From the NCBI GenBank assembly GCA_003194525.1, contig NBIV01000009.1, positions 372,001 to 436,000 on the forward strand: a stretch of 64,000 bases of DNA. The letters run 5' to 3'. The stretch's first letter is position 1. Each line of letters starts with the position of its first letter. This document shows, piece by piece, positions 1 through 62,715 of the stretch. A model generated the notes under the pieces. It saw only the letters and a list, made by a program, of their open reading frames with translations, was not told the DNA's origin and searched no databases. Origin of the DNA: Gracilariopsis chorda (Eukaryota; Rhodophyta; Florideophyceae; Gracilariales; Gracilariaceae). The translations under genes and the position numbers were made by a program.

Positions 1-2640
1 CCAGATTCCTCGGATGGACGAGTAAATCAGCTCGCTTAGAAGTGCTACGGTTTTCACTGCTCTTCAATCTAATAGGGGGTTATTGGCTAGTTTCTATCCG
101 GAAGGAGAACCAAGAAAGAACTGCGTTTGTGTGCCATTAGGGAGTATGTCGTTTTAAACAATTTCCCTTTAAGTTAACCAATGCACCTGCTACGTTCCAA
201 CGTTCCAGATACATTTTACCGCCCAAGTTCAAATGGACAACATCATTGGTGCATCCGACCGATATAATATTGGTTCTCTAACAACCTGGATGATCATATA
301 ACCCATGCGAGGAACGTCATGCGTGTGCTTCAAGGTGCAGATATTACGCTAAAAGCTCAAAATGTTTGACTTCTTTCTAGATTAGGCGAAGTATCCTGGA
401 CAAATAATCCGCCCCAGACAGCTCTAGATAAATGGACTAAGAGTTAAGTCGCTGGAGAACGCGAAGCATCCCACTACGCAAACGGAACACCGACCATTTC
501 TAAGATTTCATAACGTATATCGTCGGGTTGTCGCGGATTTTGCGGATTTCGGGGCTTCTCTGAATGCTCTCCTGGAGAAGGGACTACCAGTGTAACTAGA
601 ACCTCTTGCACAGTCGGACGCATCGGTTTTCACATCCCTCATCAACGCCTTTACCCGTCCACCAATATGGGCTCTGATAAATATTGGTTTACCCTATGAA
701 GTGGATATTGATGCGAGTAATAACCAGGTGCCTTTTGTACAATTACAAGTGCCCAAAAACTCTGAACCTTCGCCAATCAGAAATTAGTTTCCAAATTTGA
801 TCGTTCACGAACGTTAGTCCTCGGGTTTTGAAGGATAGTGCCTTGCCGATGTATAGACACTTTCCATTTACACTTAATAATATTGTACAGCCACCCGTTT
901 TTGGATATATACGGCTCATTTCTGCTTCTTTTAGCTCATAGGGATTGCCAAACCACTGCAACGCGTCATGTGGTGTCGCCTCCGACTCTGAGAGTTTAAT
1001 ATCGAAGAACTTCATAAAAAGGGCACCGTTAACACAGAAGCCGACGCTTTGTGCCACATGGGAGTTACTGCCGAATTAAAACTGGTCGGTGATCTTGAGA
1101 TACTTTGTTTCTTGGTTGAAAACGATGAACGGAATACCAGGATTTGTCAGAGGACATTTGTGACGCTATTAGTCCCTCTAAGTGTTCGAGGCTGCCGGAC
1201 GAAGGCTTCTTAACGTTTATTACTCGAGAAGCGTTGATTGGCAAATAACTATGCCGCCCGTTATAAACCCAGATTTGCGCTGGATTCAATGGAGAATATG
1301 GCTAACCCTTTTTGACAAACGATCATGGATACATTGTCAGGTTGTTTCATTCTTCCCCACAGGTTAGGTATCCCATTCATTACGTGAAAGTTTTCCAACT
1401 GTCTCAATATGTGAATCTTGAAACACACCCATGAGTTACAAAGCTATATTTGACTCTCCGCAAACATTTCTATTGGCCCGTCATTGCGCTCGACTATTAT
1501 GCAATTCGTGGCTTTTGTACGGAATGAGCTAAGAACAAGGTAAAGCTACGGAAACAATCAAAGAGGTTAACGCTGTTCCCAGCTCACGCTCTACTAAGAA
1601 TCGTGGCCATTTATATATTCGGCGAGTTGATTTGGATACCCCTATGGAACCATTATCTGCTGGTAACACCCGACTGGTTTTCTAAACTCGTATATACAGC
1701 GCCGCTTAAGTGGATTACCACTGCAGCGGCAGCAAAAGCCCTGGTCCCCCATTGAGTATTCGTTCACGTTCCACTAGTCAACGTACTACCCACACAGGGT
1801 CCACAGTTTATGTCAAAGTTCTTTAAGACTTGTTCCGTATTCTTGGTGTTCTAAATATACTTGTCACTACATTTAAATAGTAAGGAAATGGACAAGTGGA
1901 ACAGTTTACTCGTACGATGCTGAATGCATTACGACTCTATGTTGCAGATAATCCCAAAGACTGGGACTTGAAAACCAATGCGGTTAGATATGCCTACAAT
2001 ACCCAAATCTATTGAGGTCCATCGCTCTCACCTTCTGACTTGGTTTTATCCCGCATTTTACCCCCTGTAGCAATTGAGGCTGACCTAAGAATTTCGGCGT
2101 ACCCTCACCACCGTTACAATGGAAATATTGGCAGGAAGGCTTGAAGAATATGGTCCCGGTCACCCAGGGAGCTATTGATAAAGCTCCACTTGCGTACAAG
2201 CGTAATTCTGGCAAGAACATAGGTTAACCACTACCGCAGGTTAGAACAAATGAATTTGTTTTCATTCGTAAGAAGTACTTTAATCCTGAAAAGAAAAAGC
2301 ATGATAAGTTTTTTTTAAATCATTGACAAACAACATCATCTGGATTTTACTGCCAACGAAACAGTTGTCTTGTATATTGACGACCAACAGGACCTAGTTT
2401 CAGGCTAGAGCGTTACTCTACCTCCTAACACAACCCTTGATACCCAGCATACCTCTAATAATAGTCTGGACTAATACAACGTGCTCGTGGCTCCTTCTCC
2501 ATCGCGATCGGCGATTCTACCGCATCCGTATCGTGGTTTATCGGGTTTTCCGAAGGAAAAAGATGTCCATCTTCTGAACAGCTCCTCAGATACTCCCTAT
2601 CACTCAGCTTGACTCACCCTTCCAAACACTCTACTCACCT
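1..2640 (+). mobile_element. Gypsy-A pol relic (RT, RNase H, integrase)
   Basis: This is an old Ty3/Gypsy polymerase region running off the left edge of the window. Reverse transcriptase-like sequence lies at the start, RNase H-like sequence around 450-720, and the integrase core around 1,380-2,220, followed by a proline-rich tail to about 2,640. The order and many short stretches match Gypsy-B (minus strand, 47-50.6 kb); for example the integrase segment near 1,915-1,960 corresponds to the one near 48,300. It is broken in many places and clearly older than Gypsy-B. It probably belongs with the antisense gene and LTR at 12.3-15.2 kb, since these lie in the same orientation and element order. 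That pairing is an inference, because about 9 kb of unrelated sequence lies between. Confidence 0.8.
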
Positions 2641-8330: not shown

Positions 8331-8656
8331 GACGCCCTTGCCTGCGAATATCTACTTAACAACTACATAACAATAAACTGCTGATTCTGTTGTTCCAGAA
8401 TGGCTTCCATCTCGACCATGTCAAGGAGTGGCAAAGTGTCATCGTTGACGTCCTCCCAGTCCAATGCTCCCTCTAATTCCCCACTGACCCATTCTCTCTA
8501 CACCTGCGTAGCTCAAGAATTCTGCTTCAGTTCCTTCTGCAGTCGACGTGGATTTGATGAGCTCGTGGCCTGTGTTGACCTGCTCTTTTAAAACACTACG
8601 CAAAGAACTCGTTGAGTTGAGGATGGCGCTGTTAAATGCGCAAACGACCATCTTCC

Positions 8657-10619: not shown

Positions 10620-11149
10620 GAAACATTCCGTGATCCACCAACTTTGTTTGCGTCCTGTACGTCTTTTGAAGCTTTGAGAAGAAATTTCTGATGGAAGTAC
10701 AGCTCCGCCTCATATCATAGAGCGCAGAGGAGAAAGGGTCGCGTGTGGGTTTGGGTGACAAAAGGGGAAGTGGAAAACAAGAAGCGTTTGACAGAGAACT
10801 TAAATGAAAAGAAGAGATTCTAGGGAGAAACGGCGAATTGGGTTGCATACAATTCTTTGAAGAGCCAAAGCTTGCAGCATAGTCTACCCTACGGTGCGCA
10901 CGAGCCAAAAATATTTTATTATTCGATTGAGGTAAATATTACGCGCCTTTTTGTTGTGGGTTGTGTCAGCAGCAAGTGTCTTTTCTACGCCTGCTTTCAA
11001 ACCTAAAAAGGTCCTTGATGGATTCGCGTTTGTACGTCGCTAAGTGGACTTTGCTCTACTAACTGACCAGAAACATGTGAAGACGATTTCTCCAGATTAT
11101 TCTTCAGTGTAGTAGCTCAACCTGGTACACGCTTTAAAAGGACTGGCTA

Positions 11150-11180
11150 TTTTCAAAGGTTGTAATACAACCTTTGAAAA
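11150..11180. repeat. 31-bp perfect palindrome
   Basis: TTTTCAAAGGTTGTA at 11,150-11,164 is followed, after a single A, by its exact reverse complement at 11,166-11,180. Such a perfect structure with a 1-nt loop is unusual among decayed sequence. It lies between the hAT relic and a small plus-strand ORF that opens inside it at 11,174. It could be the end-to-end junction of a small inverted element. Confidence 0.85.
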
Positions 11181-11515
11181 GAGTCACGGCGGCCGGTTAT
11201 GTAACGATGTCACGGCAGAGACTCAAATTTATTGCACGACCCTACAATATTTGGGAGCGAAGAAACGCAGATTTAGACGTAGCACGCTTACAGCACCGTG
11301 AGGCGCTAAGGTGCAAAAGTAACAGAAACCGTAACAGTGTCCACGACAACCCGTGGCATCCATCGAAAAGGCTTTACCTGAAGCGCCATCGACACTCTGT
11401 GGATATTCAGCGGTGGCTATCATCCAATCAGGATACAGTTTGCACACACTGTAGGCGGTCGTTCTGCCTCGATGAACAGGCCGTGCAGCACACTAGTATC
11501 TCTCTTAAACGGTAA
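11174..11515 (+). CDS. Hypothetical small basic protein (113 aa)
   Basis: This is an uninterrupted frame of 113 codons, rich in Arg and His, with a CTHCRRSFC cluster near residue 90 that could in principle bind zinc. I recognise no family. The ATG lies inside the right arm of the 11,150 palindrome. It stands between a hAT relic and Gypsy-A distal sequence and has no supported promoter or partner gene. It may be a chance ORF. Confidence 0.2.
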   Translation: MKRVTAAGYVTMSRQRLKFIARPYNIWERRNADLDVARLQHREALRCKSNRNRNSVHDNPWHPSKRLYLKRHRHSVDIQRWLSSNQDTVCTHCRRSFCLDEQAVQHTSISLKR

Positions 11516-11829
11516 TCCCGACGCTGCTAGAAGCTAACCAAATCTCAGGAGCTACCGTTTGTCGGGTATTGACTCTCGAGAGCTCACGTGACAAAGTATT
11601 ACTCAAGAATGCCTATTCTATTTGTGCATAACTTCGGTTTTACGCTACATCGCGTATAACAGATGTTACTGTTCAGCCGACTCGACGGACTCACAGAAAG
11701 TAAACTCAAAGTCCATGGCGATTCAGAACCAGAATACTCTCCCTCTGGATTGGAAAAGAATCCCTGGTCCCCACAAGGGGTTCCATTTTATGGGATTCAG
11801 TCATGGGGCACAAGAAACCAGACACGTAT

Positions 11830-11975
11830 TTTCGAGAATTTGTTATCGAACGAATCGTGCGTCATGAGTATGGTCCAGAAGGAGAGGTGTATTGTTAATT
11901 CTGTTGGTATGGACAAACTCTAGAATAGGATGCTATAGAAGCCATCAAACACCTGCCTAGGTCTATAGTCCTGCA
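11830..11975 (+). mobile_element. Chromodomain-like stretch, probably Gypsy-A integrase tail
   Basis: One frame reads FVIERIVRHEYGPEGEVY, followed by WYG and an acidic stretch. This is the first half of the chromodomain fold found at the C terminus of chromovirus-type Gypsy integrases, where it targets insertion to marked chromatin. It lies in the same orientation as the 1-2,640 pol relic and the LTR at 14,228. It is a fossil and broken. A host chromodomain gene is the alternative. Confidence 0.5.
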
Positions 11976-12309
11976 AGATCAGTGAACGACTTCGACATCC
12001 ATACCAGCAACGGTGGATAAAGCACAAGTAGTGTATGATCGTACCCGCTCTCAGAAGCATGCTATGTGACCGCGAAGCGGAGAACCTCGAAGAAGAGGAG
12101 AAAAGGAAGAAGATACTCACGAATAGAAAAAGGAGATGATGAATTGTAGCAAATAGAACGCTACCCAGTTAATGGTTAGACCGAATTAACGGTTTCAAGA
12201 AGAGAATTCATAATGATGAAGAACACTATGAATTGGGGAATGCAGAAAAAGGACAAAGAAATACGTACGAAAAAGCACAAATTTGGTTTAACCCAAATGC
12301 TATGGAAAG

Positions 12310-14200
12310 AGTTATAACTGATATGTAAAGGTCAGAACAAAGAGTACAATACATCCCGACGAAAGGCCCACCCCAAATTGACTGGTTGACTGAGAATAGT
12401 TTGCCACAGTGAGAGCCCAGTCTTCTCTAACATCTACTATGTCCGGATGTACCGCGATTCCAGAGTTTTTGAGATCCTTGCGCAACGCCATGAAATGAGG
12501 GTCTGTTTGAACCGAAGGCGGTACTTTTGCTAGGGGATGGGGCACAATCATCTGATTTACGAAGCCCCACCCCTCAGAAGCACCCGATTGGTTGGAAGCC
12601 CCAGCGTTGCTGGGCTCAAACGGATCACCTACTGGTCCATTGTAAAGGCCACCGCTCTAATTAGCCCCTTCATGCATCATCGGATCATTGGGGTCTAACA
12701 AAGGCTCGTTATCGTCATAAGACATGAGTATTGTCGGATGTCGGACTGGTGTAGTCTCCAGAACCCTGCGTTGCTCCACTGCGTGAGCACGGGAAACCAT
12801 TGAATTTACATACGGTTCGTAATAAGTAAAGTCGTTAGCAGTTGAATGCCGGCCACCCCGAGACTTTTTACGAAGATTCCTTGGACCCTTACCAAGTTTA
12901 TTTCACGGAACAGTATCCCCGTTGACCGCTTCGATCACATCCACGACGTTTAAGACTTCAACCACATTGTCGTGGAATCCCAAGGAGACTAATAGGTCGA
13001 GCTGTTAGATGATGATTTTAACCATCAGCGAAATAAACCATAGACGTTAGTTCTCATAAGCTTTCCAGAGGAGGAAAAACACTATATGGGCAGCCCACTC
13101 TGCGACAATGAGTGACCGATAGCCTGAATTCGGATTATCAGTGATGCTGAAACTTATATAAGTTGACCAGGGAGCAGTTCCTGGAACCACCACTTGAGTA
13201 CCTCAACCTAACACCATCATGGCTGTAATGCTGCAAAGCGACTATGAAAAGTTTGTGGATGATACGTTTTGGATTCGATATGGGTTTACGTCATAAGATA
13301 ATTCTCTCGGACAAGTGCCTTGCGCTTAAACCGAATCTTCTTGGAGGACGCTGCTTGAGTTTTGGAACGCCAGATGAACAGAAACTCTGCAAAGATTATT
13401 GTTATGGCCCAGCCATGCATTTTGGACTAGGTGGTTACCTGCGTTTCGGTTTTGAAGTGAACCGTGTCGTGCTCGACAGGGTTATCTCCATAGGATAATT
13501 TGCCATCGGTGCGATACTTCAATGCATCGAAGTGGTATTCGCTGGGAGTCAGGTGTCGAATAGAAGTATGCATTAGCCGGTTATACGCAAGGCGCGTCAT
13601 TTCTACTCGGGACGTGTCCATGTTCTATCTACGACAGAGGTATATCCTTAAAAAGGTTAGGATCTAACGCAGTGCGTTCTCACAAATCTCGTGAAGTGAG
13701 CACGTCAAGTAGAAGCTGACCAGAGAGAGCGCCGTGGTGTGTGCAGGAATGGATCAACGGCAGTTTAAAAACATCAGAAGGGTGAAACCAAGGAGCCCTG
13801 GGATAAACCAAAGGAATTTGGAACAGATCACGTGCTTCCAGAGTTACACTGTGGACAAAGCCGAGTTGGATGATGACACCCAGAATAACCTGAGAGAAGT
13901 GCCACCCACGGACGAGTACTGGAACGGTTATCGGACGGTTACCATGATGCAATAAATCGTAAGGAAACGGACTCAGTCCAGAAGATGAAGGAGCAATATT
14001 CCCAGACTAAGAAACACCCACTCCAGGGTTGTGTTGGATGCAATTTTCGGAGATCATTGGTGAACATGAAGTATGAGATTCGATTGTTTTGGTACTAGCT
14101 CGTCGCGTTATGCCTAGAACCAAAGCAAGGTTGGCGTTAGCTTTGAGGAGTTGGATTCTTCATACCCTTTTTCGCCTGCTGGTTATTGGCTTTCGTTGCG
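12310..14200 (-). mobile_element. Gypsy-A antisense gene relic
   Basis: Minus-strand coding-like sequence lies between the chromodomain stretch and the plus-strand LTR, opposite to the element's own direction. Short motifs match the antisense gene of Gypsy-B in the same order. RAPWFHPS is near 13,790; a YHFDALKYRTDGKLSYG-like stretch near 13,500-13,550; LLWKAYEN near 13,055-13,080; YYEPY near 12,810-12,830; then a Gly/Ser-rich stretch and a C-terminal segment ending near 12,320. It is broken in several places. No known domain is recognised. The match to Gypsy-B is seen directly; its function is unknown. Confidence 0.7.
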
Positions 14201-14227: not shown

Positions 14228-15168
14228 TGTAGAGCAATTCGTATGCACATACCCTGTAGGCGGGGTGGATCATGAATGATTGAATGCAGACGTGGCATCG
14301 GTTCAAATGAGGTAAAAGTGGACCCTTCAAACTATTATGTGAAATTCGATATGAACTTTATTTGGTATTTTTGGAACCTTCATGGGTTGTATATGATATA
14401 TCGAAGCAAGTAACTTGTGGTAAGAGTACGGAAACTACTCATGGGCGGCATGACTCACACGTTTCGTATTTTGCCTTGGCCGGCCATGCCACTCATTGAC
14501 ACAAACGGGTGGACCACACGTGTGGCACAGTAGTAGTATTTTTGTTCTAATATGACCAAATACTAGTAAAAAGAGGATGGACCTGAAGTTTCGCCCTAGA
14601 GTAAAGTTCAGCTGTAACTCAGATCTTAGTCTATCGCCTGCGCGAATCAATAACTCTCTCCTGGAATTTCACCGCGTCCAGTTTCGTAATACTCATCTGC
14701 ACAGTTTCAACCAGAACTTCTGATCTGTCGTACCCCGTGCTGTTGCTCAGGGTCAACTGTCACTACCATTTTGGTAAATTTTTTAGTCTAGGAAACGATA
14801 ATCTTTCAACTCAATATTGATTTTTTGCGTTGTTAGATGGATAAGGACACCCAGACCGTAGGATTTCTCTCGGCTTTCTGCGTGAAGTGCCGGGTTGTAC
14901 CTTTCTTCCATTCCTCCTATCTCTCTCGCACAATTTTCGTTTAAGTACTACGTCAGCGGGACACACTGCATACACGGATCTTTGCACTAGTTCGACCGGC
15001 TTGTAACCCGATTCCTGGTAACAACTCCGTCGGTATAGCATGAAATCACGTTCGTTTTACGCCCAAACACCGCCCTGATCGGAGTACCATGTCACCGAGC
15101 CTACCTCATAATACAGCGGGGGCGCAAAATTTTTGAGAGGACTTCCCATGTAGGTATATTGCTCCACA
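14228..15168 (+). mobile_element. Gypsy-A 3' LTR (941 bp)
   Basis: It begins TGTAGAGCAA and ends GCTCCACA, so the ends form a short inverted repeat. Two other copies of the same LTR, at 30,052-30,993 and 31,560 to about 32,507, define its length. Shared blocks include GACGTGGCATCGGTTCAA near the start and a conserved region around 15,010-15,030. No clear target duplication is visible on the right, consistent with great age. Divergence from the other copies is substantial by eye. Confidence 0.85.
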
Positions 15169-26805: not shown

Positions 26806-27736
26806 CTCTAAAGATTAATGAAGCTTGCTTTGACACTAAAACATATGTGATAGACTTGATACTATTTGACTTAATCTTAGGCAAGTCATGGTTATGAGAA
26901 ATAAATACTCTTATATATTTGAAGTTAAACCATGTGCTCATTATTTTGGAAGGTAAGAAAATTATTCTGGACGTAGACTCTGGGAGATATGACGCTATGT
27001 CCCTACCGACATTCGTAGTTACCAGTAGTGAATTCGTTAAGCATGTAAGGAAATATAAATCTATGATATATCATGTTGTTGAGAAGGCCAGTCGAGACAA
27101 GTCTAAGTCTGAGACTAAAATAAAATTAAGGTTTAGACAAAGCTTTACGTTAAAGTCAAAGAGTGGATAAAATTTGCTTAAGAGTACAAGTATCATTGAG
27201 GTAAAACAGCTGTTAAACAATTATGAAGATATCTTCCTGGAGAAGCTACCAAGAGAATTACCTCCTCATAAAGAACTGGAAGTGGGGATAGATCTCGAGG
27301 AAAGAGCAAGCCCTATCTGGAAACAATTTATAAGGTGTCAGAGGTGGAGGTACAAGAAATGAGAAAGCACCTTGCAGTGCTACTGGTTGTGGTTTCATAA
27401 TACCAAGTGTTAGTTCTTGGGGAAGCACCGCTCGTTTTATTAAAAAGAAAGATAGAGGGCTAAGAGTGTCCATTGATTATCGTGTGCTTAACAAGCATAC
27501 GATAAAATATCAAATACCATTACTAAGAGTTGATGAAATTTGGAGCCAAATGGGAGGGGCAAAAGTATTCTCTACCGTTGATCTCAGAACAGAATATAAT
27601 CAAATGAGAATAAGAGAAAGTAATAGAGAGAAACCAGCCTTCCGAACTAGAGATGGTTGGTTTGAATATCCAATTACACAGTTTGGTGTTACTGGAGCCC
27701 CGAATACTTTCAAGCATACATGACTATTCTTCTCAG
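26806..27736 (+). mobile_element. Gypsy-C protease end and RT first half
   Basis: Protease-end coding resumes (DLILFDLILGKSWL near 26,850-26,890). A linker follows, and the RT then runs from about 27,420 with VSIDYRVLNKHTIKYQIP and VFSTVDLRTEYNQMR, ending at the solo LTR inserted at 27,742. A second copy of the 27,425-27,736 segment lies at 61,940-62,250. It is broken. Confidence 0.75.
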
Positions 27737-27741
27737 GAAAC

Positions 27742-28700
27742 TGTAGCGTACTGGGGTTTGCCATTCTATAGAGACCAGAGGCCTTGCTTTTACAGTGCAG
27801 CCGCACTGTTAATTTACAGGGCGGTGCCCTGACAAGCGTACAATTGTACAATTATTTATTTCACTTATTAGAGTTGACTAGCTTTACGAAAGCTCTTGTA
27901 GGGCCAGGCTATATCTGTGTGCAGCACACTCCAGCTTGTAAGTAAAGTACGCTGGCCTTATGGAGGCTTCCGAAATCCAGTTCTGTTACGGAAACCGCAA
28001 GTCCTTCCGGACTTACTCCGGTGTTGAAGCCGACAATACGGGCTATAGCCTCGGCAACTATAGTCGAGGTCCACCTTGTGGTCATCACTTGCCCAGTATT
28101 ACCCATTTCGTACTCGTTGCTACCGACCTTTGGCCGCTGGTGGTGCACGTTGCGCTCTTGCTTAGCCTGTTAGGCTACCGGCAACCCTGCCGTCTAAGTA
28201 GACAGCCGAACTGTTGTATCGAACGCAATAATTAGATGCCGACGCAAACCCCAGTTAGTGAGCATTGCCCACTTTCAGTGCCAGACGGCGCAGGCGTAGC
28301 ATATATACACATCTGGGCTCTGGCGCAATTTCAGGGATACTCGGCTCTCCTGTTGTCACCCATTGGGTGTTCATTGAAGCGTTGTACACGATGCAAGCGT
28401 AGGTCCTCGTCCGGGCGCTTGCCCAATCTCCGGGATATGCGCATGTTCCCTGTTGCTACGCGAAGTTCCTGGTAGACCGATAGGTCTCTTGTCGAATCCG
28501 ACACGTTTGTTGTACTTCTATTGTACGCTTGTCCCTTTGGGAGCTGTGGGCATCGCCCACTACACGTACTTCCGTTAAAAACATAGAACCGATATCGGGA
28601 TTCGAACTATTCTCGGCCTGGTAGGCTCCTCCTGCTACGTTCTGCCTGCTGCTAGCTGCGCTGATAGCGGCTGGTCTCCACTGCATCACATTGCGCTACA
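27742..28700. mobile_element. Solo LTR of a fourth family (LTR-D, 959 bp), TSD GAAAC
   Basis: It begins TGTAGCG and ends CGCTACA, with a 5-bp duplication GAAAC at 27,737-27,741 and 28,701-28,705. No internal coding is recognised, so it is read as a solo LTR left by recombination. It splits the RT of Gypsy-C; RT-like sequence resumes right after at 28,706. The first roughly 350 bp recur at 62,256-62,715 after the same RT segment and the same GAAAC. Confidence 0.85.
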
Positions 28701-28705
28701 GAAAC

Positions 28706-29560
28706 ATCTTGACGAGTTCGTATTAGTTATAGGTGGATGCCATACTAATACATTGTAAAACCAAAGAAGAACATCTTAGACATCTCGAACAAGTATTTGA
28801 GATTCTAAGGAAGAATAAACCACATTTCATATTGTCAAAATGTAAGTTTATGGTGCGAACTTCATCGATTACGTAGGACATATAATAACAACAGAAGGAC
28901 TTAAAGTCAACGTATAGAAAACAGAAGCCATAATGAATTGGAAAATTCCTACGAGAATAAAAGAGCTTCAACGGTTTTTAGGATCGTGAAATCATTACAG
29001 AAGGTTTCTGAAGGAATTTTAAAAAATTGTCTGACCTTTCACGAACGCAACTAAGAATACGAATTCTTTTATGTAGAGCTCAAAAGAAAATGGTTCATTT
29101 CAACAACTGAAAGATGCATTAAGGACTAATCAACTTCAAAGATGTGGATGTCCATCACTACGCTATGAGTTGGCTGCAGACGCATTTCAGACAGCATTTG
29201 GTGCAGTACTATGACAATCAGAAAATGTATTAATAGAACCGTTGCTTTTGCTTCAAGAAAACATCCGCAACTGAGCAAGGATACTGTGCACATAAGAGAG
29301 AACTACTGGGTATTGTCTATGCATTAGAAACATGGCCATCATATTTGCATGGAGCCAAATTCATATTATATATTGGTCACCATTCTTTTAAATACTTAGA
29401 AAACAAAAAGATTTTATCCAGAAAACAAGCAAGATGGGTTGCGTTTATGCATGAATTTGATTGTGAGATCAAATACGTTAAATGCAGTTCAAATAAAGTT
29501 GCCGATGCATTATCAGGAAAATAAAAAGAAATACCGCGATTATCAGATGCTTTTATAAAG
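28706..29560 (+). mobile_element. Gypsy-C RT second half and RNase H
   Basis: RT sequence resumes directly after the GAAAC repeat. RNase H-like sequence follows at about 29,150-29,520, including a block near 29,440-29,520 reading HEFDCEIKYVKCSSNKVADA, the conserved end of Gypsy RNase H. It is broken. Confidence 0.7.
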
Positions 29561-30051: not shown

Positions 30052-30993
30052 TGTCGAGCTATGCGTGCAAGCATACCCTCTAGGCGAGGTGTATCATAAA
30101 TGATTCAATACCGACGTGGCATCGGTTCAACTCAGGTATGGCTGGACCCTTGGAAATACTGGGTGAAATTCGATATGAATTTTAATTGGTATTTTTGGAA
30201 CCTTCGTGGTTTCTGTGGTATCTGGAACAGATGGACGAGTGGCGAACATGCGGATATTATTCACGATTGGCATGATTCACACGTGTCGTGTTGCTCCGTG
30301 GCTGGTAGTGCCGCCAAGTGACAGAAGAGTGTGGACCACAAGTGTGGCACACTACAGTAGTAGTATTCTTAGTTTATGGTGACCCAATAGTACTTAAAGG
30401 AGGACGGCCTTGCCGTTTCACACTTAAGTAAAGACAAGCTCTGACTCGGCTCTGAGTTTATCGCCTGCACGAAGTGACCAACTCCTGCTGGGGTTTCACC
30501 ACGTTTGGTCTCGTTATACTCACCGGCACAGTATCATCGAAGACCGCTGATCTGTCTTACCACGTGGGTCTGCCCAGTGTTCACTGTTTTTCCCGTTTTG
30601 GTTACTTTCTATTGTCAGAACATATAGCCGTTCGACTCAGTATTGAGTTTTGCCGTGCTGGCTAAACAAGCAACACCCCCCACCCCCGAGTCTCTGTTTG
30701 CTTTCTGCATGCCCTGTCGGGTTGTACCTTTCTTCTTGGTTTCTACCGTTATTCTCCTTCCCTGTCTGGATTCTCTGCGGACCAGAACACCGTTCACACA
30801 GACTTGTGCACTACGTTGACAAGCCGGTAATCCGATTCTCGGTATCACCTCTGTCTGTATAGCCAGAAGCCACCTTGGTTTTTACACCCGAACACCGTGT
30901 GGTATGGATGTCCATTTCGTTGCGCCTACCTCACAAGAGAGCAAGGCTGCGAACACTTTGGGAGGAGTTCCAGCCTAGGGATATTGCTCCACA
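30052..30993 (+). mobile_element. Gypsy-A solo LTR, TSD GAGAA (942 bp)
   Basis: It starts TGTCGAG and ends GCTCCACA, flanked by GAGAA at 30,047-30,051 and 30,994-30,998. It is the same family and orientation as 14,228-15,168 and nearly the same length. It interrupts the integrase of Gypsy-C. A perfect 5-bp duplication fits a Ty3/Gypsy integrase. Confidence 0.9.
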
Positions 30994-31559: not shown

Positions 31560-32507
31560 TGTAGAGGAACGCGTATGCGTATGCCCTCTAGGCGAGTTCG
31601 ATCATGAATGATTCAGTGCCGACGTGGCATCGGTTCAACTCAGGTGTGAATGGACCCTCGGAAATTTTGGGTGAAACTCGATACAAATTCTATTTGGTGC
31701 TTTTGGAACCTTCATGGGTGATTTCTATAATATCTGATATAAGTGGAGGCATAGTAAGCGTATGGACATTATTTATGACTGGCATGATTCACACGTGTTG
31801 TGGTGCGCCTGCCCGGCCATGCCCGGCCATGCGTCTCATTGAAAGAAATGTGTGGAACACACCTGTGGCACACTACAGTAGTTTCATTATTAATTTTATC
31901 CTGACCCTATACTACTTAATGGAGGACGGCCCTGCCATTTCACCCTGAAGAAAAGTCAAGCTGTGACCCGGCTCTGAGTTTTCGCCCGCGCGAAGTGAGT
32001 AACTTTCTCTTGGAGTCTCACCGCGTTCGGCCTGGTTACATTCACCTGCACAGTATCATGTAGGACCATTGATCTGTCTCACCCGCTACTTTTCCCAGTG
32101 TTCACTGTGTTAACGGTTTAAGTTACTTTTTAATGTGGCCAAAAATAGCCGTTTGACTCAATATTGCGTTTTGCAATGCTGGATGAATAAGCCACACCCC
32201 AACCGCCGGGTTTCTCTCGGCTTTCCCCACGACCCGCCGGGTTTTACTCTTTTCTTTCGTATCTTCCCCCCTCCGCCTTACTTTGCTTTGGATTCTCTGT
32301 GGAGCAGAACACAGCTTACATGGACCTGTGCACTACGTTGAACAGCTTGTAACCCGATTCTCGGTAACAACCCCGTTGGTATAGCCTGAACCCACCTTGG
32401 GTTTACACCCGAACGTGCGGTTTGGAAGGCCCTGTCGCTGTGTATACCTCGCAAGAGAGGAAGGCTACGAACGGCTTGGGAAAATCTCCTGCCTAGGGTT
32501 AGTGCTC
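31560..32507 (+). mobile_element. Gypsy-A solo LTR, second copy in Gypsy-C integrase
   Basis: It starts TGTAGAGG, shares the GACGTGGCATCGGTTCAACT and downstream blocks with the copy at 30,052, and ends near 32,507. Integrase-tail coding of Gypsy-C continues on both sides. The right end and its target duplication are less clear than for the 30,052 copy. A small internal duplication (GCCCGGCCAT twice) is at about 31,810-31,830. Confidence 0.8.
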
Positions 32508-40506: not shown

Positions 40507-41706
40507 TTGGGCTTTCTACAGAACGCACGAAATTCAATTAACGCCATAAAAGCGGTGCAAATTCATCTTCCAATCACTATTAGACGACCCATAACCCATG
40601 AAGTCCTCTTTAGCAACCTCAAATATCATGACCACAAACAAATTTTTCGACTAACGACAGATGAATTCGAAACCTTATTTAGCAGGGTTTCGCATGACTT
40701 GAAGAGAGGTGTACAAATGGGCTAGACATCCAAACAGAAAACGATCACACCATGAACGCGGCTTTTAATTACCTTGCAAGTTCTACCAGAGTAAGTTTAC
40801 AGAGACATTATGCTATCATTTCATGTTGGTCGCTTTACGGCCTATCAGGTATTTCATGCGACACAAAAAGGGCTTATGAAGGGTTTGATTCTACCTGGAC
40901 TGACGCAAACGGCGAAAGAGCTTGAAGAGCTCTCGTTGGGCTTCAAAAAATCCCATAAGAGACTGGATCCGTTGACCAGCTATGTCGGAGCGATTGATGG
41001 CATTTCTATAAGAATAAAGAAGCCATCTTGCTCTAACGCTGCACCATTCTACTGTCGTGAGGGGTCTTATTCTCTACCGTTTCAGGCTCTGGTTGACTCG
41101 AAATACCACTTTTTAGATGTTTTTATACGATGCGTGGGATCTACTCATGACCGACTTGCTCATTCCGTTTCCCAATTAAGGCAGTATCTTGCCACCAAGA
41201 GACTCCGAATTGAATATTGGATAGCCGGGGACGAGGCGTATCTTTGTAATAACAGTCTCATTTGCCCTATCCCTTTGTCTCAGACAAAAAGCTGCTGGGA
41301 AAATGGCTTCACTTTCTACCTCTCATCTCTACGAATCCACGTGGAGCAAGCCTTCTGGATGTTGGTTGCACGGTGGCGTGTGCTAAGAGATCTAGAGTTT
41401 TCCGTTGAAGTTAGTTCAGAAATAGTAGCCTTATGCATGAAGCTGCACAACTTCTGCGTAGAAAACAAGCCTGAACAAATGGAGAACATCAATGCTGACG
41501 ACGTTTGTCAGAGTAATAAAAACGTGCTTGCTTGGTACGACTGCTGCAAGGAGAGGATGGCTAGCTGGGTGAATGCAGAAGAATTGGAGCTCGAGGGAGA
41601 GGAGGATGTATTGACGAAGAGGGATGAATTGTTTGATGTCATTAAAAAGAAGGGTCTCACACGTCCCTTGCCTCCGGGAGTGCCATTTCGTGCTGCTGAG
41701 CTTTAA
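40507..41706 (+). CDS. PIF/Harbinger DDE transposase
   Basis: It cuts and rejoins transposon ends in the nucleus. The long frame from 40,810 (298 codons) carries the DDE_Tnp_4 nuclease. Asp63 is in GAIDGISIRIK, Asp141 in IAGDEAYLC, and Glu179 in RIHVEQAFWMLVARWRVLR. A STHDRLA block (110-117) and the C-terminal KLHNFCVEN (211-219) are typical of the family. All three catalytic acids are present. The same frame is open upstream from 40,507 to 40,722 (72 codons, including ITHEVLFSNLKYHD and FRLTTDEFETLF, the usual N-terminal region). Three stops at about 40,723-40,800 separate the parts; a short intron or decay would explain this. Known relatives run 350-450 residues, so both parts are probably needed. 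The accessory gene converges on it from the right end. Confidence 0.8.
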
Positions 41707-42081: not shown

Positions 42082-43015
42082 TGTGGAGCAAAACCAGTGA
42101 GAGTTGTAGCTCTCAAGGCGTCCGTGTCCTTGCTCCCTATGAAGGGTAGACTCAGCGGACGAGCCCTCTACTACTTACGAGTGTCAGGTGCAAAATCCAA
42201 CGGTGGATGCTGGCTATACCTGTAGAGGTGAACACGCAGAATCCTGAAAAGAACGAGATCAGAGAAGAATCCGAGTGAGGGAAAGTAGGCAGCGTACACA
42301 GCAAGTAAAATGTCCCAAACTGGAAAGAGGCCAAGCCCGAAAAGGGGTGAGGATCATGCTCAAATCGGCAACAGACACGAAAACCAAAGAGGAAAATATT
42401 AGAAGTAACCAAACAACAACCCAATACTGGGGCGGAGATCTGTCCTGCAACAGGATACACAAAATATAACCCACACAGTTACACCCACGGTGGGTGTACT
42501 TACACGGAAGTCCTTGGTGGTCCTGAGGGGATAGTCGTACTGAAACGAAACGTGGTTACTCTCCACATGGTGTCGTCAACCTACGCAGGCAGTTGCAACC
42601 AGAGCCAATACTCTAGTTAGGATGCGAACCTCAGTTCAGTTTACTTGATGGTGACGACGGCGAGGTCAGCTTCACCTAAGTAGGTTCTACAGTAATTAAC
42701 TAAAACAATTAACAAAAGTTGTGCAAACCTGCGGAGGTCCATAAAAGTGGGGAACCCACTGTCAGGGTCCACAGGTGCCACTCGCCCAAGGCGTATATCC
42801 GTAATCGGATCCAACGTCTGTATACGCGTACCAAGCATCCTGCCCAATTGAGGATGTTCATAAACTGCCTTGCCAGGTGAAAATCCAACCAAAATCCACC
42901 AGAATTCAACCCAAAATTCGGCGAAGAATCCTAACCTGAGAGGTGTTGAGCCAAGGCCTTGCCACATCCTATGAGAAGGATCATCACTGATATAAAAGCC
43001 TCGCGTTGCTCCACA
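42082..43015 (-). mobile_element. Gypsy-B 3' LTR (934 bp)
   Basis: It is identical in length to the right-hand LTR and matches it throughout, with the strongest identity at 42,600-42,760. On its inner side AAGGAGGGGGGA (minus strand, 43,016-43,027) is a polypurine tract, which shows that the element reads right to left. Confidence 0.9.
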
Positions 43016-43095
43016 TCCCCCCCTCCTTAAGGGTGCAGTCCCACCTATCCGTCGACGGAGAGCTACCTCCGTGGGGTCTATAAGAGAAACTCTCG

Positions 43096-44929
43096 ATGCC
43101 GAGTTCCACCGGCCGCCCGGTTTCTGCAATAACGTCCCAACATGGGAATTTGTTTGAACCTTCGAACTCCGGAAAAGTTTCTGCTTCTTTTGTATCTCCT
43201 TCCAAAGATATGAACCCGTTTCCTACCAAGCCGCTTCCGGGTGCCTCCAGGTCTGGTGCCCCTCCGCTCCGAGGGCGTCACCCTCTGCGGGTTCGATGCG
43301 CGGTGCCTACGCTGGGTTTTGGGCTGCCCCGTTACCTCAAGGTCAAGGCCATCCCGTTCTTCAGAAGCATCTGCCTGCTCAGCAACCACACCCTCAGGGT
43401 TTGGATGTGGACGCCATTGCGTGAAACTCAGCTCAAGCGCTGCCGTTGACGGCTAATTCCAGAGGCTGGACATCACGAAAATCTCTTGAGATTAGGGACC
43501 CGTTATTCGATCAGCTGATCTTCTGCCGAGCTCCATGGTTTCACCCTTCCGCGGTCGACGACGACGACCTAATTGACCGCTATGCGGAGGAAGGTATACT
43601 TCCCGTTGGGATTCCCATTGAGATGGTTCGCTCTCCCGACTGACGGGCCCGTATCGCAATCGATCCACACTTCTTGTACCGTCGCCGCGGTTAGTCATTC
43701 GACGATGCCCAGGCGGCAATGGTGCGGCTTTCGTACCAGTGCGTAGCGCGGGCTTGAAATGAGCAGTTAGTACCGGCAAGTTATCGGTTCGATGTGTCGC
43801 ACTTCCAGACCTACGGCGAGGTATCGTTTAGAGCCGCTCTAGCGGCGTTTTCTGAACAGGAGTTGCGTTGCGATCAGCTCCAAATTTGGGCAAGTATGCT
43901 CCTGTGTAGTCGCCCCTGGCTTAGCGCTGAGTTCCGATACATCTGGAGATCGATGACGCAGTACCCCTTTGACTGACTTGTTCGGTTTGAGCGCACATCG
44001 TGGTCCCGTTTCGGGTTTCTTATCCCGTATCCTCACTTGGAGGTCGAAAACGTGCGCAGCCATGCGAGGGCTACCCGGTACGACCACTCCCCTATTGGTT
44101 GAGCAAGGTTGAAGTACCCCGTGCGGTCTTTGCAGAGCTTTTTAAGGGCATCTATTACTTGGGGTCGCAGCTTATCGGGAACTCGACGTCTGGGTACTGG
44201 TCCTTGGTGGCAGCCAAATGGGCAGCCCGCGTAGCGGTTCATCTCCTGTGGGAGGCCTATGACAATTACTGTATCTGGTACATTCCTCCGCTCCTGCGTT
44301 GGGTCATGCGATATCTGGATTTGTACCCGGCATTGGGGTCCGAAGCCAACGTGCCAGAGTTACGACAGATCCTGGGCTTCATCGATAAGATCGATTGGCA
44401 CCGGGTTCCGGTTCCTAACCAACCCGAAGGCGAAGGATCCGCCCATGACCGGTCACCAGGTCGGTGTAGTCCCTTTTCGGGTAACTTCGTACATTATGAC
44501 CCTTACGAGGGTGCCTTGATCGACGAACGTCACGCCGCAGCTTTAAGAGACGCTCCGCGTTCAATGCCGTTCGGTCACCCTGTTGGGTTCGTGTACGCTG
44601 TAGAATGGGAACCGCCCATCGATTGGGATGATCCAACCATCGATGATGGTGCCAACCTTCATGCAGGTTCTAGTAGCGTTCCGGCCTCCGGCCCGTCCTC
44701 GGGAGGTAGTGCCCAGCAGGCCACCGGTGCTAGTGCGTCAGCCCCAGCTGGGTGGAATGTCAACACTCCTCCGAGTCAGGCGCTTTCTTTGCAAGCGGCG
44801 GCCTTGCACCAGAACCTTCTAGGCCTTGGCGTTCCGATCCCTGCGGGTATGAGGGATGGAGGAAAGATGGTGGCATTTGCGGCTTCGCATCAGAACCAGG
44901 GTGGTGGTAGTGGTCCTTTTCAGCACTAG
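43096..44929 (+). mobile_element. Gypsy-B antisense gene
   Basis: Coding-like sequence lies on the strand opposite to gag-pol, between integrase and the 3' LTR. The longest open stretch is 44,000-44,929 (309 codons); coding character extends left to about 43,100. Motifs shared in order with the Gypsy-A antisense relic are RAPWFHPS (43,527-43,550), FDVSHFQTYGEVSF (about 43,785-43,830), LLWEAYDNY (44,243-44,269), HYDPY (about 44,492-44,506), DDGANLHAG and GWNVN. The C-terminal third is Ser/Gly/Ala-rich and ends HQNQGGGSGPFQH. I see no zinc finger, protease, nuclease or envelope features and no membrane segment. Antisense ORFs in a similar place are known in some plant Tat-lineage Gypsy elements; I cannot say whether this one is related. 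It is broken. Confidence 0.65.
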
Positions 44930-48077: not shown

Positions 48078-49007
48078 CTGGGACCATCTGGATTAGCCAC
48101 TTCTTCCATGCTTCACGGTACAACCTTGGGGAAGGGTAACTTGAAAGAGTTGGCTGAGCCTCAATGGCAACCGGAGTCAGTATTCGTGAGAGAACCAACT
48201 CAAACGGTGATCGCGAAGTTACCCTGTGCACTTGGGTGTTGTATGCGTAAGTTATAGCGGCCGTGTACAGGTCACCTTCCCTAGGGTGGTCCGCAACATA
48301 AGAACGCAATGCGTTAAGCATCGTACGGTTAAACCGTTCTACCTGACCATTACCCTGAAAATGATACGTAGTAACAAACAGATTCTCTATATCCAGGATT
48401 CGGCATAAATCTGCAAAGAACTCCGAAGTGAGCTGAGATCCGTTATCGGAGAGTAGCTGTACCGGTGAGCCGTAGACAAAGACCCAATGGGTGACAAACG
48501 CTTGTGCCACGACACTGGCGGTAATCCGTTTCAATGGGATCGTTCGTACGAGCTTCGAAAACCAGTCGGTTATTAGAAGTAGATACTTATGACCGCGGGG
48601 GGTACGAATAAGTTCCCTATGATATCGATTGCGAAGAACTGTAAAGGACCCCGAGCTGGAAACAGCGTCAACTTCTTTGGGTACTTACGCAGCTTGAATT
48701 CTTTTTTAGCACTCTCTGTGCACGAGCGACGAACTGCATAGCAGTCAAATGCCATGGCGGGCCAGTGGAAGTCTCTTCTTAGTGTGAAATACAGCTTTCT
48801 TCCGTCTCGGTGGGCTTCAACCTTCACGAAGTGTGAGAAGTGTAGAATACGCTGCTGCAGCGCGTGAGACACTATAACCTGGGGTCGAGATTCAACCAAC
48901 CTGACGAAGTATCTTTGATCATTAACCGAGAATGGTATCTGGTGTCCACCATTAAGTCGGGAGCGAATCTGCGTACAGAAAGCATCTCTTTGCTGTTCAC
49001 GTATCAT
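47995..49007 (-). mobile_element. Gypsy-B integrase
   Basis: The N-terminal zinc-binding region (HFSHFVKVEAHRDGRK, then C-x-x-S-C-type spacing) is near 48,730-48,900. The catalytic core follows, with AIDIIG near 48,620, LLSDNGSQLTSEFF near 48,420-48,460, and GQVERFNRTMLNALRSYV near 48,290-48,350. In life it inserts the DNA copy into the host chromosome. It is a fossil and broken. Confidence 0.85.
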
Positions 49008-49435
49008 CTACTCTGGAGTAATCAGTACAAAAGAACCGGCAGGCGGCTCCGAAGGTTCGGCGATGAGACTATCGTCGCATAAGTCATCTGTCAGGATTTC
49101 AGCACCATCGTCTCGGTCAGCAACCATGAAGCATGGAATGTCGAGATCTTCGGTAGGTTCCGCTTTGGCGGTTGTTCCCAGAGTAGATAACGCATCAACC
49201 TAAGTGTTAAAGGCTCCCTTCTTGTACAGGACGTCAAAAACGAGTTCCGAAAATCAGAGGTGCCAACGCATTAACCTTCCTGAAGGTTTGGAGATCTCGA
49301 ATAGCCAACGAAGGGAGGTATGGTCCGTATGTACTTTAAAGTGAGTAACCATCAAGTAGGGTCGAAGTATGGACAGTGCCCACACAACGGCGATACACTC
49401 TTTCTAAGAGACTGAATAGTTACGTTCGTGCACGT

Positions 49436-49870
49436 TCAACGATCGCGATCGAACCCTATAGGGTGCCGTTCGCCATCTTCAGATACCTGGAACAGCGCAC
49501 AACCAAACTGGTTCGCACTTGCATCAGTGTTGACCTCAAATGGTAACCCAAGTTGGGGTAGTTCCAAAATAGGCGATGACTTTACGGCGTTCACTAAAGC
49601 CGTAAAGGCAGACGCTTCCGCGTTGCCAAATGTTTCCAGATTGACTGCTTGTCCCTTGGTCAGGAGCTTGTTGAGGGGAGTAGAAATTTCCGCAAAGTTC
49701 GGAACAAACCGCTGATACACGTTACAGATTCCTAGAAAGGAACGAAGCTCCGTCTGGGTTCTAGGGTGTTTTGGTTCCTTTAAGGATTTCACTCGTACTT
49801 CCTCAATGGCTAAATTTCCAGGACGGATTACGTGCCCCAAATACTTCACCGAATTGGTTACAAAACTCAC
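49436..49870 (-). mobile_element. Gypsy-B RNase H region
   Basis: RT-to-RNase H connection (YLGHVIRPGNLAIEEVRV, then LRSFLGICNVYQRFVPNFAEI) and the first RNase H strand (LPFEVNTDASANQFGCALFQ). The order and spacing are normal for Ty3/Gypsy pol. Confidence 0.85.
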
Positions 49871-50585
49871 ACTTCTTGAGTTTCAGAGTGATTCCTGCAT
49901 TGCTGAGTACTTGCATAACGTCCCTTACATGGGTTGAGTGGTCATCCAAATTGTTGGAGAAAACGATGATGTCGTCAAGATACACCAACCAGGTTCTCCA
50001 TTTAAAGCGAGCTAGTAGAATGTCAATGGCCCTTTGAACGGTCGTGGGTGCGTTCGTTAGCCCGAAGGGCATGCGCCGAAAACGGTATAGTCCTTTATGG
50101 TAAACAAAACCGGTTTTATCGTGATCTTCCTGGTGGATAGGAACTTGCCAATTACCCCAGTTCGCATCGAGTGCAGTAAACACCGTTGCAATCCCAAGTG
50201 AGTCGAGATATTCATCAATCCGTGGTATAGGATACACTTCTTTCACCGTAACCGCGTTTAGACGGCGGTAGTCAATGCAAAAGCGCCATGATTTATCCGG
50301 TTTCGGAACTAACACCATTGGTGAAGCCCAAGATGACTGAGCAGGTTGGATAACGCCAGGGCGTAGCATCTTCTCGACTTGAGATTTTTCCTCTTCACGA
50401 GCCTTCGGGCCAGCCCTATAATGGTGTTGTGCGATTGGCCGAGTGCTCGGAAGCGGATCCATACGATGTTCTGTAATCCCTATTGTTCCCAGGGAGCCAT
50501 CCCACATGGGATTGAATTCAGGTAACATATTGCGTAATTTATCGCGATGAGATTCTGGGACATGGTCCAAGTTCAACTTCTCCAA
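49803..50585 (-). mobile_element. Gypsy-B reverse transcriptase
   Basis: Clear Ty3/Gypsy RT: SWASPMVLVPKPDKSWRFC, IDYRRLNAVT, FTALDANWGNWQVPI, MPFGLTNAPTTVQRAID and the active-site YLDDIIVFS near 49,960-49,985. This is the best-preserved pol domain in the window. Confidence 0.9.
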
Positions 50586-51869: not shown

Positions 51870-53754
51870 TTGACCCTTCCCGAAGAGGGAGCGTGCATCT
51901 CGGTGCAATGTGACCAAAGAGATAGCATAGGTAACATATGAACGAGTTCGGGTCCTCTTTTGGACGAATATCCACCTGTCCGGGTGCTGTGTCCCTCCAA
52001 CCACGGCTTGAGAAGCGAGAAGCATTATTCGCGAAAGCGAGCAGTGCGGCAGGTACCTAGATTACGTTGGCATAAAACGCAGGATCTCCATCCGAGGTCT
52101 GAACAGAAGTCGACAGCAAATTCGTAGTACCCAATGAATCAGGGTGGCTTCCCAAGAAGTGGACGTGATCATGTACCTGACAAGGGGTGGTACCTTGTAA
52201 CAGGGATGACGACGGTGTAGATCTTTCCAAAAAGAGCGCTATCGACGATCGAGTCTTAGTGCATTGTCGGGCGCGAAGGGTATCTCCTTCAGCCTGTGCA
52301 TATTGCACTAGTTCCAAATAGGAAATATGTCGTTTCGCTTCCCGATGACGGGCAACCAAAGCCCTTATGGCAGGATCCAACCCATCCACAAACATTGTGT
52401 ATCTCTCCTGTGAGGACTACACATTACCAAAACGGTAAAACGCCTTATTCAAGCACGTTGAGTAGACCGTTTCGGTTTCCATCGGTTTTTGCTTCGTATC
52501 CCGTAGGGCCAGAATCGCTTCTTGGATCGCATTTCCAGTAGCATACGACCTGAGAAGGTACTGAACCGCTTCGGGCCAACACGTAACTCCGCATTCTGAG
52601 GCTCTGGACGATCCGTGAACGGAGTTAAACTGGTCTTGAGCCATTCCTTTGAGGAACAATGGTAGGCCGAGGTACACCTGCGCCTCACTCATGCCGTGTA
52701 TGTTGGCTTCCTGTACGAACCTCGCAAGGAAGTCTAGTACCAGAATCGGGTCTTCTCCTGTAAATTCCCTCTTCTGTAGGGCGATGGGCAAACGCTTAAT
52801 GTAGGCTTAAACCTTTTCAGATACTCGTTAAGAACGCTCTGCAGAGGAGTTTCCCAACCGGTAATAACAGTACGAAAGCAATTTCGGATACAGTGGATTC
52901 GTTGGTTTCAGCCCTTTGAGCCCCGAGTGTCTTTGTCCCTTCTTTCGTGACCGGATAGCACCTTTAGTAGTGTATGTAGCCTTGGCCCGCGTAGCAAAAC
53001 GACGGCGGTCACGATGCTCAATATCCGAAGAGTCGGATGAAGAAGTCAAAGAGTGGTGAGAGGAATCTGAATCAGATGAATCCAAATGCGTGCAAACATC
53101 CTTCCTGGATTTGCAGCGACTCTGTTTATGGGGCCTGTGAACTGATCATTCAGAGGACACGTTGTCGTTACCTTTGGGGTCAAAGGCTTCATCAATACGG
53201 ATTATTCCCTCCAGGGCATTTACGCGCGCCTTGACTCGATCACAGTTCATACGGACATCTTCTGCAAGAGCTCGGTACTCCTGAGCAAACACCGCTGGGG
53301 TACCAAGACTTGCTAAGATGAACTTCATATCTTGTCTCAGGAGACGAATCTCTTCTGAGAAATTCCTTACTTGGGCGTCCTCAACCTTACGCCCAAGTTC
53401 GGTAATCTCCGTCAAGACCTCCACGTGAGCTGCGTTAGCAATATACACGCGGGATTCTAAACAAGAGATTTCGTTACGCTCGGGGAACACTCGATTGACC
53501 GTTGAAGGTGTCTCAATCACTGATGGTTGGTTCACTGTAACGACCTGTTGAGGTTCTGAGGCAATTGAAGATGCTCTCCGAGAAGTTGGGTCGGTGTCGA
53601 CATTGTCCTGATCCTCGGGTGTAGATCTCCTAGAGCGGGGAGCCCTGGGGGCAGGTCTAGCTGCAGAAATAGATCCATTCCGAGAATGCGGAGCAGGTGG
53701 CGTCATGCTGCAGATAGACAACCGGTGGTGCTCGGTATACAATAGAGAAATCAA
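51870..53754 (-). mobile_element. Gypsy-B gag (capsid and nucleocapsid)
   Basis: The N-terminal part (53,146-53,754) is Pro/Ser/Arg-rich, followed by a helical RKVEDAQVRNFSEEIRLL region. The capsid-like part is at 52,400-52,800 (FTGEDPILVLDFLARF, then LPLFLKGMAQDQF). A basic stretch lies at 52,830-53,085. A zinc knuckle CYLCYLFGHIAPRC of the C-x2-C-x4-H-x4-C type is near 51,895-51,940. It packages element RNA in life. It is broken. Confidence 0.8.
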
Positions 53755-53965: not shown

Positions 53966-54899
53966 TGTGGAGTTAAACTCATGAGGGTTGTAGCTGTCAA
54001 GGCGTCCGTGTCCCTGCTACTTATGAAGGGTAGACTCAGCGGACTACCCCTCTACTCCACACGAGTTTCGGGTGTAAATCCAACGGTGGATGCTGCCAAT
54101 ACCTGTACAGGTGAACACGCAGAATCCTGAGAAGAATGAGATCAGAGAAGAACCCGAGTGAGGGCAAGTAGGCAGCGTACACAGAAAGTAAAGTGTCCCA
54201 AACTGGAAAGAGGCCAAGCCCAAAAAGGGGTGAGGGTCGTGCTCACAGCGGCAACAGACCCAAGATACAAAGAGGAAAATGGTAGAAATAACCAAAGAAC
54301 AACCCAATACTGGAGCAGCGATCTGTCCCGCAACAGGATACAAAAACTATGACCCACACGGTTACACCCAAGGTCGGTGTACTTACACAGAAGTACTTGA
54401 TGGTCCTGCGGGGATAGTCGTACTGAAAAGAAACGCGGTTACTCTCCAGATGTAGTCGTGAACCTACGAAGGCAGTTGCGACCAGAGCCAACACTCTAGT
54501 TAGGATGCGAACCTCAGTTCAGTTTATTTGATGGTGACGACGGCGAGGTCAGCTTCACCTAAGTAGGTTCTACAGTAATTAACTAAAACAATTAACAAAA
54601 GTTGTGCAAACCTGCGGAGGTCCATAAAAGTGGAGAACCCACTTTCAGGATCCACAAGTGCCACTCGCCCAAGGCGTATATCCGTAATCGGATCAAACGT
54701 CTGTATACGCGTAACAAGCATCCTGCCCAATTGAGGATATTCATAAACTACCTTGCCAGGTGATAATACAACCACAATCCACCAGAATTCACCCCAAAAT
54801 TGGGGAAGAGTCCTAACCTGAGAGGTGTTGAGCAACGGCCTTGCCACATCCTATGAGAAGGATCATCACTGATATAAACGCCTCGTGTTGCTCCAAACA
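53966..54899 (-). mobile_element. Gypsy-B 5' LTR (934 bp)
   Basis: This is the partner of 42,082-43,015, read right to left. It ends near CTCCAAACA at 54,899. The next 30 bp belong to Harbinger sequence. Confidence 0.9.
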
Positions 54900-61782: not shown

Positions 61783-61939
61783 ACGCTGCTGAACTATCTA
61801 CACCATTCTTCGTCGCATACTCATCGAAAATGGCCTACCTCAGCTCAAAACAGCATCCTTGAAGACGCTTAGGCAAAAATCGAATAACAATTTGCCAGAA
61901 AGATGAAATTCAGGCTCTGAAAAAGATTGTGAACTTGGT

Positions 61940-62715
61940 TGCACCGTTAGTTTTATTAAAAAGAAAGATGGAGGGCTAAGAAATGTCCATCGATTATCGT
62001 GTCCTCAAAAAGCAGAAGATAAAATATCAAGTACCATTACCAAGAGTTGATAAAATTTTGAGCCAAATGGGAGGAGAAAAAGTATTCTCTGCCCTTGGTC
62101 TCAAAACAGAATATAATCAAATAAAAAAGAGAAAGTGATGTAGAAAAACAGCCTTTTGAACTAGAAATGGTCAGTTTGAATATTTCATTACACTGTTCGT
62201 TCTTAATGGAGCCCCGAATGCTTCCAAACATTAATGAATATTCTGCGCAGGAAACTGTAGCGCACTGGGGTTTGCCATTATATAGATGCAAGAGGCCTGG
62301 CTTTTATGGGGCAGCCGCACTGTTAATTTAGAGGGCGGTGCCCAGAATGTTTTGTTCTTTGCGGCACTGCCGCCTTGCATTTGGCGTGTATTGGGTGTGG
62401 CGTGTGCACGTGCGACACTGGCCCTTGGCCGACTACAGCGCACAGGCACATGTACAATTGTACAATTATGTACTTTACTTATTAGAGTTGACTAGCTTTA
62501 CAACAGCTCTCGGAGCGGCAGGCCATGTTAGAGTACTGCACGCTCCTGCTTGTAGGTGAAGTACGCTGGCCTCATGGAGGCTTCCAAAATCCAGTTTTGT
62601 TATGGCAACACAAGTCCTTCCGGACTTACTCCCGTGTTGAAGGCGGCAATACGGACTATAGCCTGCGCAACTATAGTCCAGGTCCACCTCGTGGTCCACA
62701 CTCGCCCAGATTCCA
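61940..62715 (+). mobile_element. Second copy of the Gypsy-C RT / LTR-D junction
   Basis: Positions 61,940-62,250 match Gypsy-C RT at 27,425-27,736 (nearly 90% by eye). They are followed by the same GAAAC and by LTR-D sequence from 62,256 that matches 27,742 onward to about 62,715. This copy has about 100 bp extra near 62,340-62,445. The match stops at both ends without LTR boundaries. It is broken. Confidence 0.85.

Follow-up and report, generated by a model that had tools for sequence, protein, structure and literature searches.

The 64,000-nucleotide stretch of Gracilariopsis chorda DNA analysed here (contig NBIV01000009.1; hereafter the window) contains a Gypsy retrotransposon at about 42.08–54.90 kb, whose minus strand carries gag-like, protease, RT, RNase H and integrase regions and whose two LTRs are 90.7% identical across 943 columns (Table 1). 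On the plus strand at 43.2–44.9 kb, between integrase and the 3′ LTR, lies the broken remnant of a further gene, antisense to gag-pol and split into at least five frame pieces. We searched the window in six frames with a profile built from nine relatives of this gene (one other copy in the G. chorda genome and eight protein-database entries, the window copy itself excluded), obtaining four ordered plus-strand matches between 43425 and 44926; no match in the reversed-sequence control fell below E = 1.9. A second, older remnant of the same gene gave six ordered profile matches, at 13683–14006 (E = 5e-6), 13430–13624 (E = 1e-11), 13289–13426 (E = 0.025), 13050–13202 (E = 8e-9), 12906–13004 (E = 0.003) and 12660–12902 (E = 2e-6). 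The two antisense coding remnants, which the original prediction had paired by the shared order of their motifs, are thus genuinely homologous. The placement it gave, between integrase and the 3′ LTR, is likewise borne out, with pol of the window element on the minus strand at 53.7–48.4 kb and the gene on the plus strand. Both remnants are antisense to pol, although the pol remnant assigned to the second element only probably belongs to it. The start proposed at 43096, by contrast, is not the homologous one, which is the ATG at 43210, and the 309-codon stretch singled out there, while a genuine part of the gene, is only its second half. Judged by its sequence, the window copy is what remains of a real gene that has been broken several times.

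Table 1. Features of the window that bear on the antisense gene
Feature	Position	Strand	Evidence or remark
pol remnant, opposite strand to second gene remnant, probably of the second element	5..1824	+	Window search
Further, older antisense-gene remnant (~14.0–12.3 kb)	12660..14006	-	Six ordered profile matches
LTR-like repeat beside second remnant	14228..15168	+	69–71% similar to two further window copies
3′ LTR (pol orientation)	42082..43015	-	LTR against LTR alignment; ends by eye, approximate by a few bases
Complement of presumed polypurine tract, adjoining 3′ LTR	43016..43031	+	Similar pyrimidine run after LTR end in other copies
TATA-like box TCTATAAG of antisense gene (candidate)	43077..43084	+	7/8 to TATAWAWR; 68 bases from LTR-edge anchor; shuffle p 0.02
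Start codon (M-N-P...), homologous to start in other subfamilies	43210..43212	+	Comparison with other copies
N-terminal Pro/Ser-rich part, first frame piece	43210..43449	+	Frame reading
Frame piece with RAPWFHPS	43425..43640	+	Profile match, E 9e-18
Frame piece with FDVSHFQTYGE	43758..43973	+	Profile match, E 1e-14
Short frame piece	43977..44099	+	Profile match, E 5e-9
Longest open piece, second half of gene (LLWEAYDN, HYDPY, C-terminal part)	43991..44929	+	Profile match 43991–44926, E 2e-71
Integrase region of pol, broken	48430..49220	-	Window search
RNase H region of pol	49371..49940	-	Window search
Reverse transcriptase	49806..50585	-	PF00078, E 9e-30
gag-like region	52108..53718	-	tblastn with gag of related element, E 1e-144
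5′ LTR (pol orientation)	53966..54897	-	LTR against LTR alignment; ends approximate

Several other features lie around these two remnants. The LTR-like repeat beside the second remnant has two further copies, 1.5 kb apart, at 30052–30993 and 31560–32507. Some 10.5 kb (1825–12300) separate the second gene remnant from the pol remnant, reflecting either an insertion or an origin in different copies. Other RT/RNase H remnants occur on the plus strand at 27391–29217 and 61935–62216, with repeats common to 27.4–28.1 and 61.9–62.7 kb. Just outside the window element, at 40810–41706 on the plus strand, is a transposase-like gene with a 298-codon frame (DDE_Tnp_4, PF13359, E = 9e-22).

The antisense gene occupies about 247 distinct scored places in the 91.3-Mb host genome, a hand count that is a lower bound. 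With the 308-residue window piece as query, 128 genome matches were scored, a figure that counts the window copy (1163 first-look candidates); the protein P0005 gave 85 (1432 first-look candidates), and 34 further distinct places were chosen by eye among 180 matches of P0003 and P0002. The search for further copies that the original prediction had proposed thus found them in quantity, and this host-genome evidence is stronger than the few motifs in two relics on which that prediction was based. An open frame of at least 580 codons is present in 71 of the 128 matches and 62 of the 85, and many copies are free of stops over 580–670 codons; because certain frame lengths recur (about 643, 647, 609, 626, 664–673 and 622–632 codons), several subfamilies are suggested. 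P0003, the hypothetical protein BWQ96_10156 of G. chorda, matches six genome places at 97–99% over most of its length. Its gene model omits about 70 bases that lie within the open frame in several copies, either as an artefactual intron or as a genuine short one. On contig C15 (286569–305450), four copies of the gene are spaced 6,017–6,020 bases apart, less than a full element, perhaps a tandem array of a shortened element. The LTRs of the natural element C4 are 99.7% identical over 915 columns and are accompanied by a matching 5-base target-site duplication, which together indicate recent spread.

At close range, the position of the gene relative to pol is uniform. When each gene match was paired with whichever scored RT or integrase match lay closest to it, pol was on the opposite strand and downstream of the gene in all 120 close pairs: 49 of 49 gene–RT pairs within 5 kb for the window-piece query, 62 of 62 gene–integrase pairs within 6 kb for P0005 (88 of 300 integrase matches used), and 9 of 9 gene–RT pairs within 5 kb for further subfamilies. 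Env-like ORFs, by contrast, are sense ORFs on the pol strand. More distant pairs, up to 12 kb, numbered three in the window-piece set (two opposite, one on the same strand at 9.5 kb) and one in the further-subfamily set (same strand, 9.0 kb), and may join neighbouring elements. Gene matches with no pol match in reach (76 of 128, 23 of 85 and 27 of 37) say little on missing pol, because scoring was confined to the best pol matches and contigs are often short. Direct reading of L041 and L042, from two divergent subfamilies, showed this layout again; the adjoining 3′ LTR was read in the window element and in C4.

These same two subfamilies, both read to the end of pol, have a chromodomain there (PF00385, E = 1e-8 to 9e-10, above the curated cut-off); no chromodomain was matched by the 42 residues scanned from the decayed window copy. 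RT, RNase H and integrase stand in that order between LTRs, with a polypurine tract, in the window and C4 elements, the target-site duplication being clear in C4 only. By these features the elements classify as chromodomain-type Gypsy, a class assigned by domain rather than by an RT tree. The chromodomain alone does not settle chromovirus membership, because chromodomain Gypsy lineages outside the chromovirus clade are described in brown algae (PMC12477816).

To assess constraint, we compared ten of 30 loci pairwise by the Nei–Gojobori method. In 38 of the 45 pairs dN/dS was 0.12–0.34; three pairs were looser (L001/L002, 0.68; L005/L012, 0.65; L022/L027, 0.57), and in four the ratio was undefined with infinite dS, most between-subfamily dS values being saturated. 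Between the subfamilies of L005, L007, L008 and L022/L027, dN/dS was 0.12–0.29 where dS was defined, and less saturated pairs gave similar values (L007/L008, 0.29 at dS 0.54; L007/L009, 0.31; L001/L003, 0.30). When six pairs were tested in all six frames, the gene's own frame (+0) had the lowest pN/pS in five, the exception being the near-identical L022/L027, where two further frames fell below it; in every pair the first copy was stop-free in +0. Ten near-identical full-length copies (97.6–99.9% identity) showed a pN/pS of 0.75 over 45 pairs. The bias towards synonymous change that the original prediction had proposed as a check is therefore present between subfamilies and slight among these young copies, and weak constraint among the latter is expected if it is the lineage that transposes on which selection operates, with copies drifting once inserted. 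The substitution pattern indicates purifying selection on the antisense gene between subfamilies, not seen within young copies.

Identity among four elements is 58–78% in RT and 50–68% in integrase, against 35–56% among five antisense genes; with this lower identity, the antisense gene appears to evolve faster than pol. The two do not diverge in step. At 78%, C4 and C46 have the highest RT identity of any pair, but in the antisense gene their identity falls to 39% (loci compared: L031, L042, L043 and L027), while C4 and the window copy share 48% in the antisense gene and 73% in RT. This mismatch has two possible sources, exchange of a 3′ module or uneven rates.

Sequence and profile searches of Pfam, PHROGs and the PDB gave no convincing match for the protein and no relative with a known function, in keeping with the original prediction that it holds no known domain. 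Foldseek found no match in the PDB for two structure models (pLDDT 58 and 69; pTM 0.53 and 0.66), nor in BFVD for the better of them. As modelled, the protein would have a helical, largely ordered core of about 330–360 residues between disordered ends. Eight of ten proteins have an acidic C-terminal tail with a net charge of -6 to -24, P0004 and P0008 being without a negative tail, and the sole hint of a nuclear signal among the ten is one short basic match. Viral contigs searched with P0001 and P0004 contained no relative, and a profile search of a large protein database returned fewer proteins than single-sequence searches. Every relative with a named host comes from the Gracilariaceae: one hypothetical protein of G. 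chorda and seven unnamed proteins of Agarophyton chilense, with further relatives among ENA and Logan proteins standing outside this tally.

Upstream of the gene we found a candidate promoter. Seventeen loci were anchored at the LTR end followed by the pyrimidine run that complements the presumed polypurine tract, the LTR edge being confirmed by LTR-to-LTR comparison for two elements only, those of the window and C4; L047 was excluded, as the region looks rearranged. When the antisense direction was searched over 40–85 bases, the top TATA-like match lay 45–70 bases from the anchor, and without that restriction the mean TATAWAWR score of the 17 loci peaked at 68–69 bases (6.1 of 8; the average over 360 positions was 3.5, s.d. 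0.5). The match was perfect in six of the 17 loci (including two pairs of close relatives), 7/8 in seven and 6/8 in four (C39, C90, C83 and C160); the 17 loci are related and hence not independent samples. Single-locus shuffling gave p <= 0.0065 for the five perfect-box loci tested and p > 0.05 in four of 11 loci (C39, C46, C378 and C90), as well as in both C160 and C168. An ATG lies 101–143 bases past the box in 14 of the 17 loci, its frame checked in part, and an earlier ATG follows the box by 5–26 bases in 12. At C6 the fit is poor, the annotated P0003 start preceding the TATA-like box. The arrangement suggests that the antisense gene is probably read from its own, predicted promoter.

The nearest counterparts in layout are found in plants. 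Retand elements (Tat-lineage Gypsy) are described as bearing, lineage-wide, antisense TRP28 ORFs of unknown function that are suspected regulators, with products predicted to bind DNA (PMC11963269). The red-algal gene shares with them its antisense slot between pol and the 3′ LTR. It differs, so far as Retand/Tat is characterized there, in host and in two defining features, since Retand/Tat has TRP28 and no chromodomain whereas the red-algal elements have a chromodomain in two subfamilies and gave no TRP28 match (PF04195; Pfam to E = 1) in the window ORF, the C4 gene, P0001, P0003, P0004, P0005 or P0008. Because both features fail, we do not file the gene under Retand/Tat: the likeness to plant Tat elements raised by the original prediction extends to the layout but not to the TRP28 domain or the absence of a chromodomain, and the red-algal case looks independent. 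Grande gene23 of maize, also antisense between pol and the 3′ LTR, is reported to have a promoter upstream of the gene and a product that localizes to the nucleus (PMC7264820, section 7 for the latter). It matches the red-algal gene in slot and upstream promoter, although the latter's promoter is only predicted and host and element lineage differ; the likeness drawn here is one of layout. HBZ of HTLV-1, in the accounts drawn on here, resembles it as a minus-strand gene of an LTR element with a regulatory product; the red-algal element, however, is not a retrovirus, its candidate TATA-like box lies just outside the LTR, and no bZIP domain was matched in Pfam to E = 1 among the antisense-gene products scanned. 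Among the titles and abstract openings surveyed, subscription papers lying outside that survey, neither this gene nor antisense ORFs in red-algal Gypsy elements came up, though such reports may exist.

The antisense gene is well supported; its expression and function we infer. Our preferred reading, which we hold at slightly better than even odds, is that it encodes an accessory protein, which most probably regulates the element in trans, in a large, old chromodomain Gypsy lineage of the Gracilariaceae. RNA polymerase II would initiate within the element, a short way past the 3′ LTR, and produce an mRNA running against gag-pol; the protein, with its helical core, disordered ends and usually acidic tail, would then act in trans on element expression, silencing or integration, most likely by regulating LTR transcription in the nucleus or by counteracting silencing, and so help the element to govern itself or its host. 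We lean towards a regulator because the antisense slot would uncouple the gene from gag-pol, because the plant products are nuclear or predicted to bind DNA, and because an acidic tail suits a transcription factor-like role; it is thus analogy and the tail that suggest regulation. More tentatively, and at somewhat less than an even chance, this orphan family, which has no matched fold, may be an independently evolved antisense regulator with its core promoter beside the plus-strand priming junction, in red-algal chromodomain Gypsy elements.

The protein might instead be structural or particle-associated, a capsid partner or env-like substitute that is antisense by happenstance. An ordered core of ~330–360 residues between disordered ends would suit such a role, as would the high copy number, but antisense expression would presumably uncouple the product from gag-pol dosage, and the missing fold match in BFVD and the PDB, weak evidence in itself, points the same way; on balance we consider this unlikely. 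That the antisense RNA rather than the protein matters, pairing with genomic RNA and limiting copy number via small RNAs, appears improbable: the gene does occupy a 3′ portion of the genomic RNA, and functions of this kind have been discussed for the antisense transcripts of other elements (PMC7264820), yet dN/dS is well below 1 and long open frames persist across subfamilies, and a purely RNA-based function would not preserve a reading frame. RNA and protein roles are not mutually exclusive.

Two further accounts deny the gene a function in the element. Were it a separate mobile element or a captured host gene, inserted once and carried along as a functionless hitch-hiker, the lack of any relative found outside the family to show its origin would be understandable; its unvarying placement and orientation relative to pol in all 120 close pairs, together with constraint between subfamilies that share 35–56% protein identity, lead us to reject this as very improbable. 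The open frame might also be a by-product of opposite-strand coding or of base composition, and the mirror frame (-1) indeed looks conserved, with pN/pS of 0.47–0.64 in five of six pairs, almost as low as +0. That frame, however, contains 11–14 stops, no long sense-strand frame stands out over the stretch in the window, and distant relatives are found at the protein level, so that we reject both a chance frame and the mirror of a sense gene as exceedingly unlikely.

In the literature drawn on here, antisense accessory genes of LTR elements are described for flowering plants and certain retroviruses, the function of the plant genes being called unknown (PMC11963269, PMC7264820). The red algae provide a separate, high-copy case, with no TRP28 found, constraint quantified between subfamilies and a putative promoter. 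In public gene sets the protein has no assigned meaning, being listed as hypothetical in G. chorda and unnamed in A. chilense. Whether the layout has a single shared purpose could emerge from a comparison of such independent cases. If the reading as an independently evolved regulator is true, then the red-algal gene, Retand and HBZ together would indicate that antisense regulators arise repeatedly in the slot between pol and the 3′ LTR.
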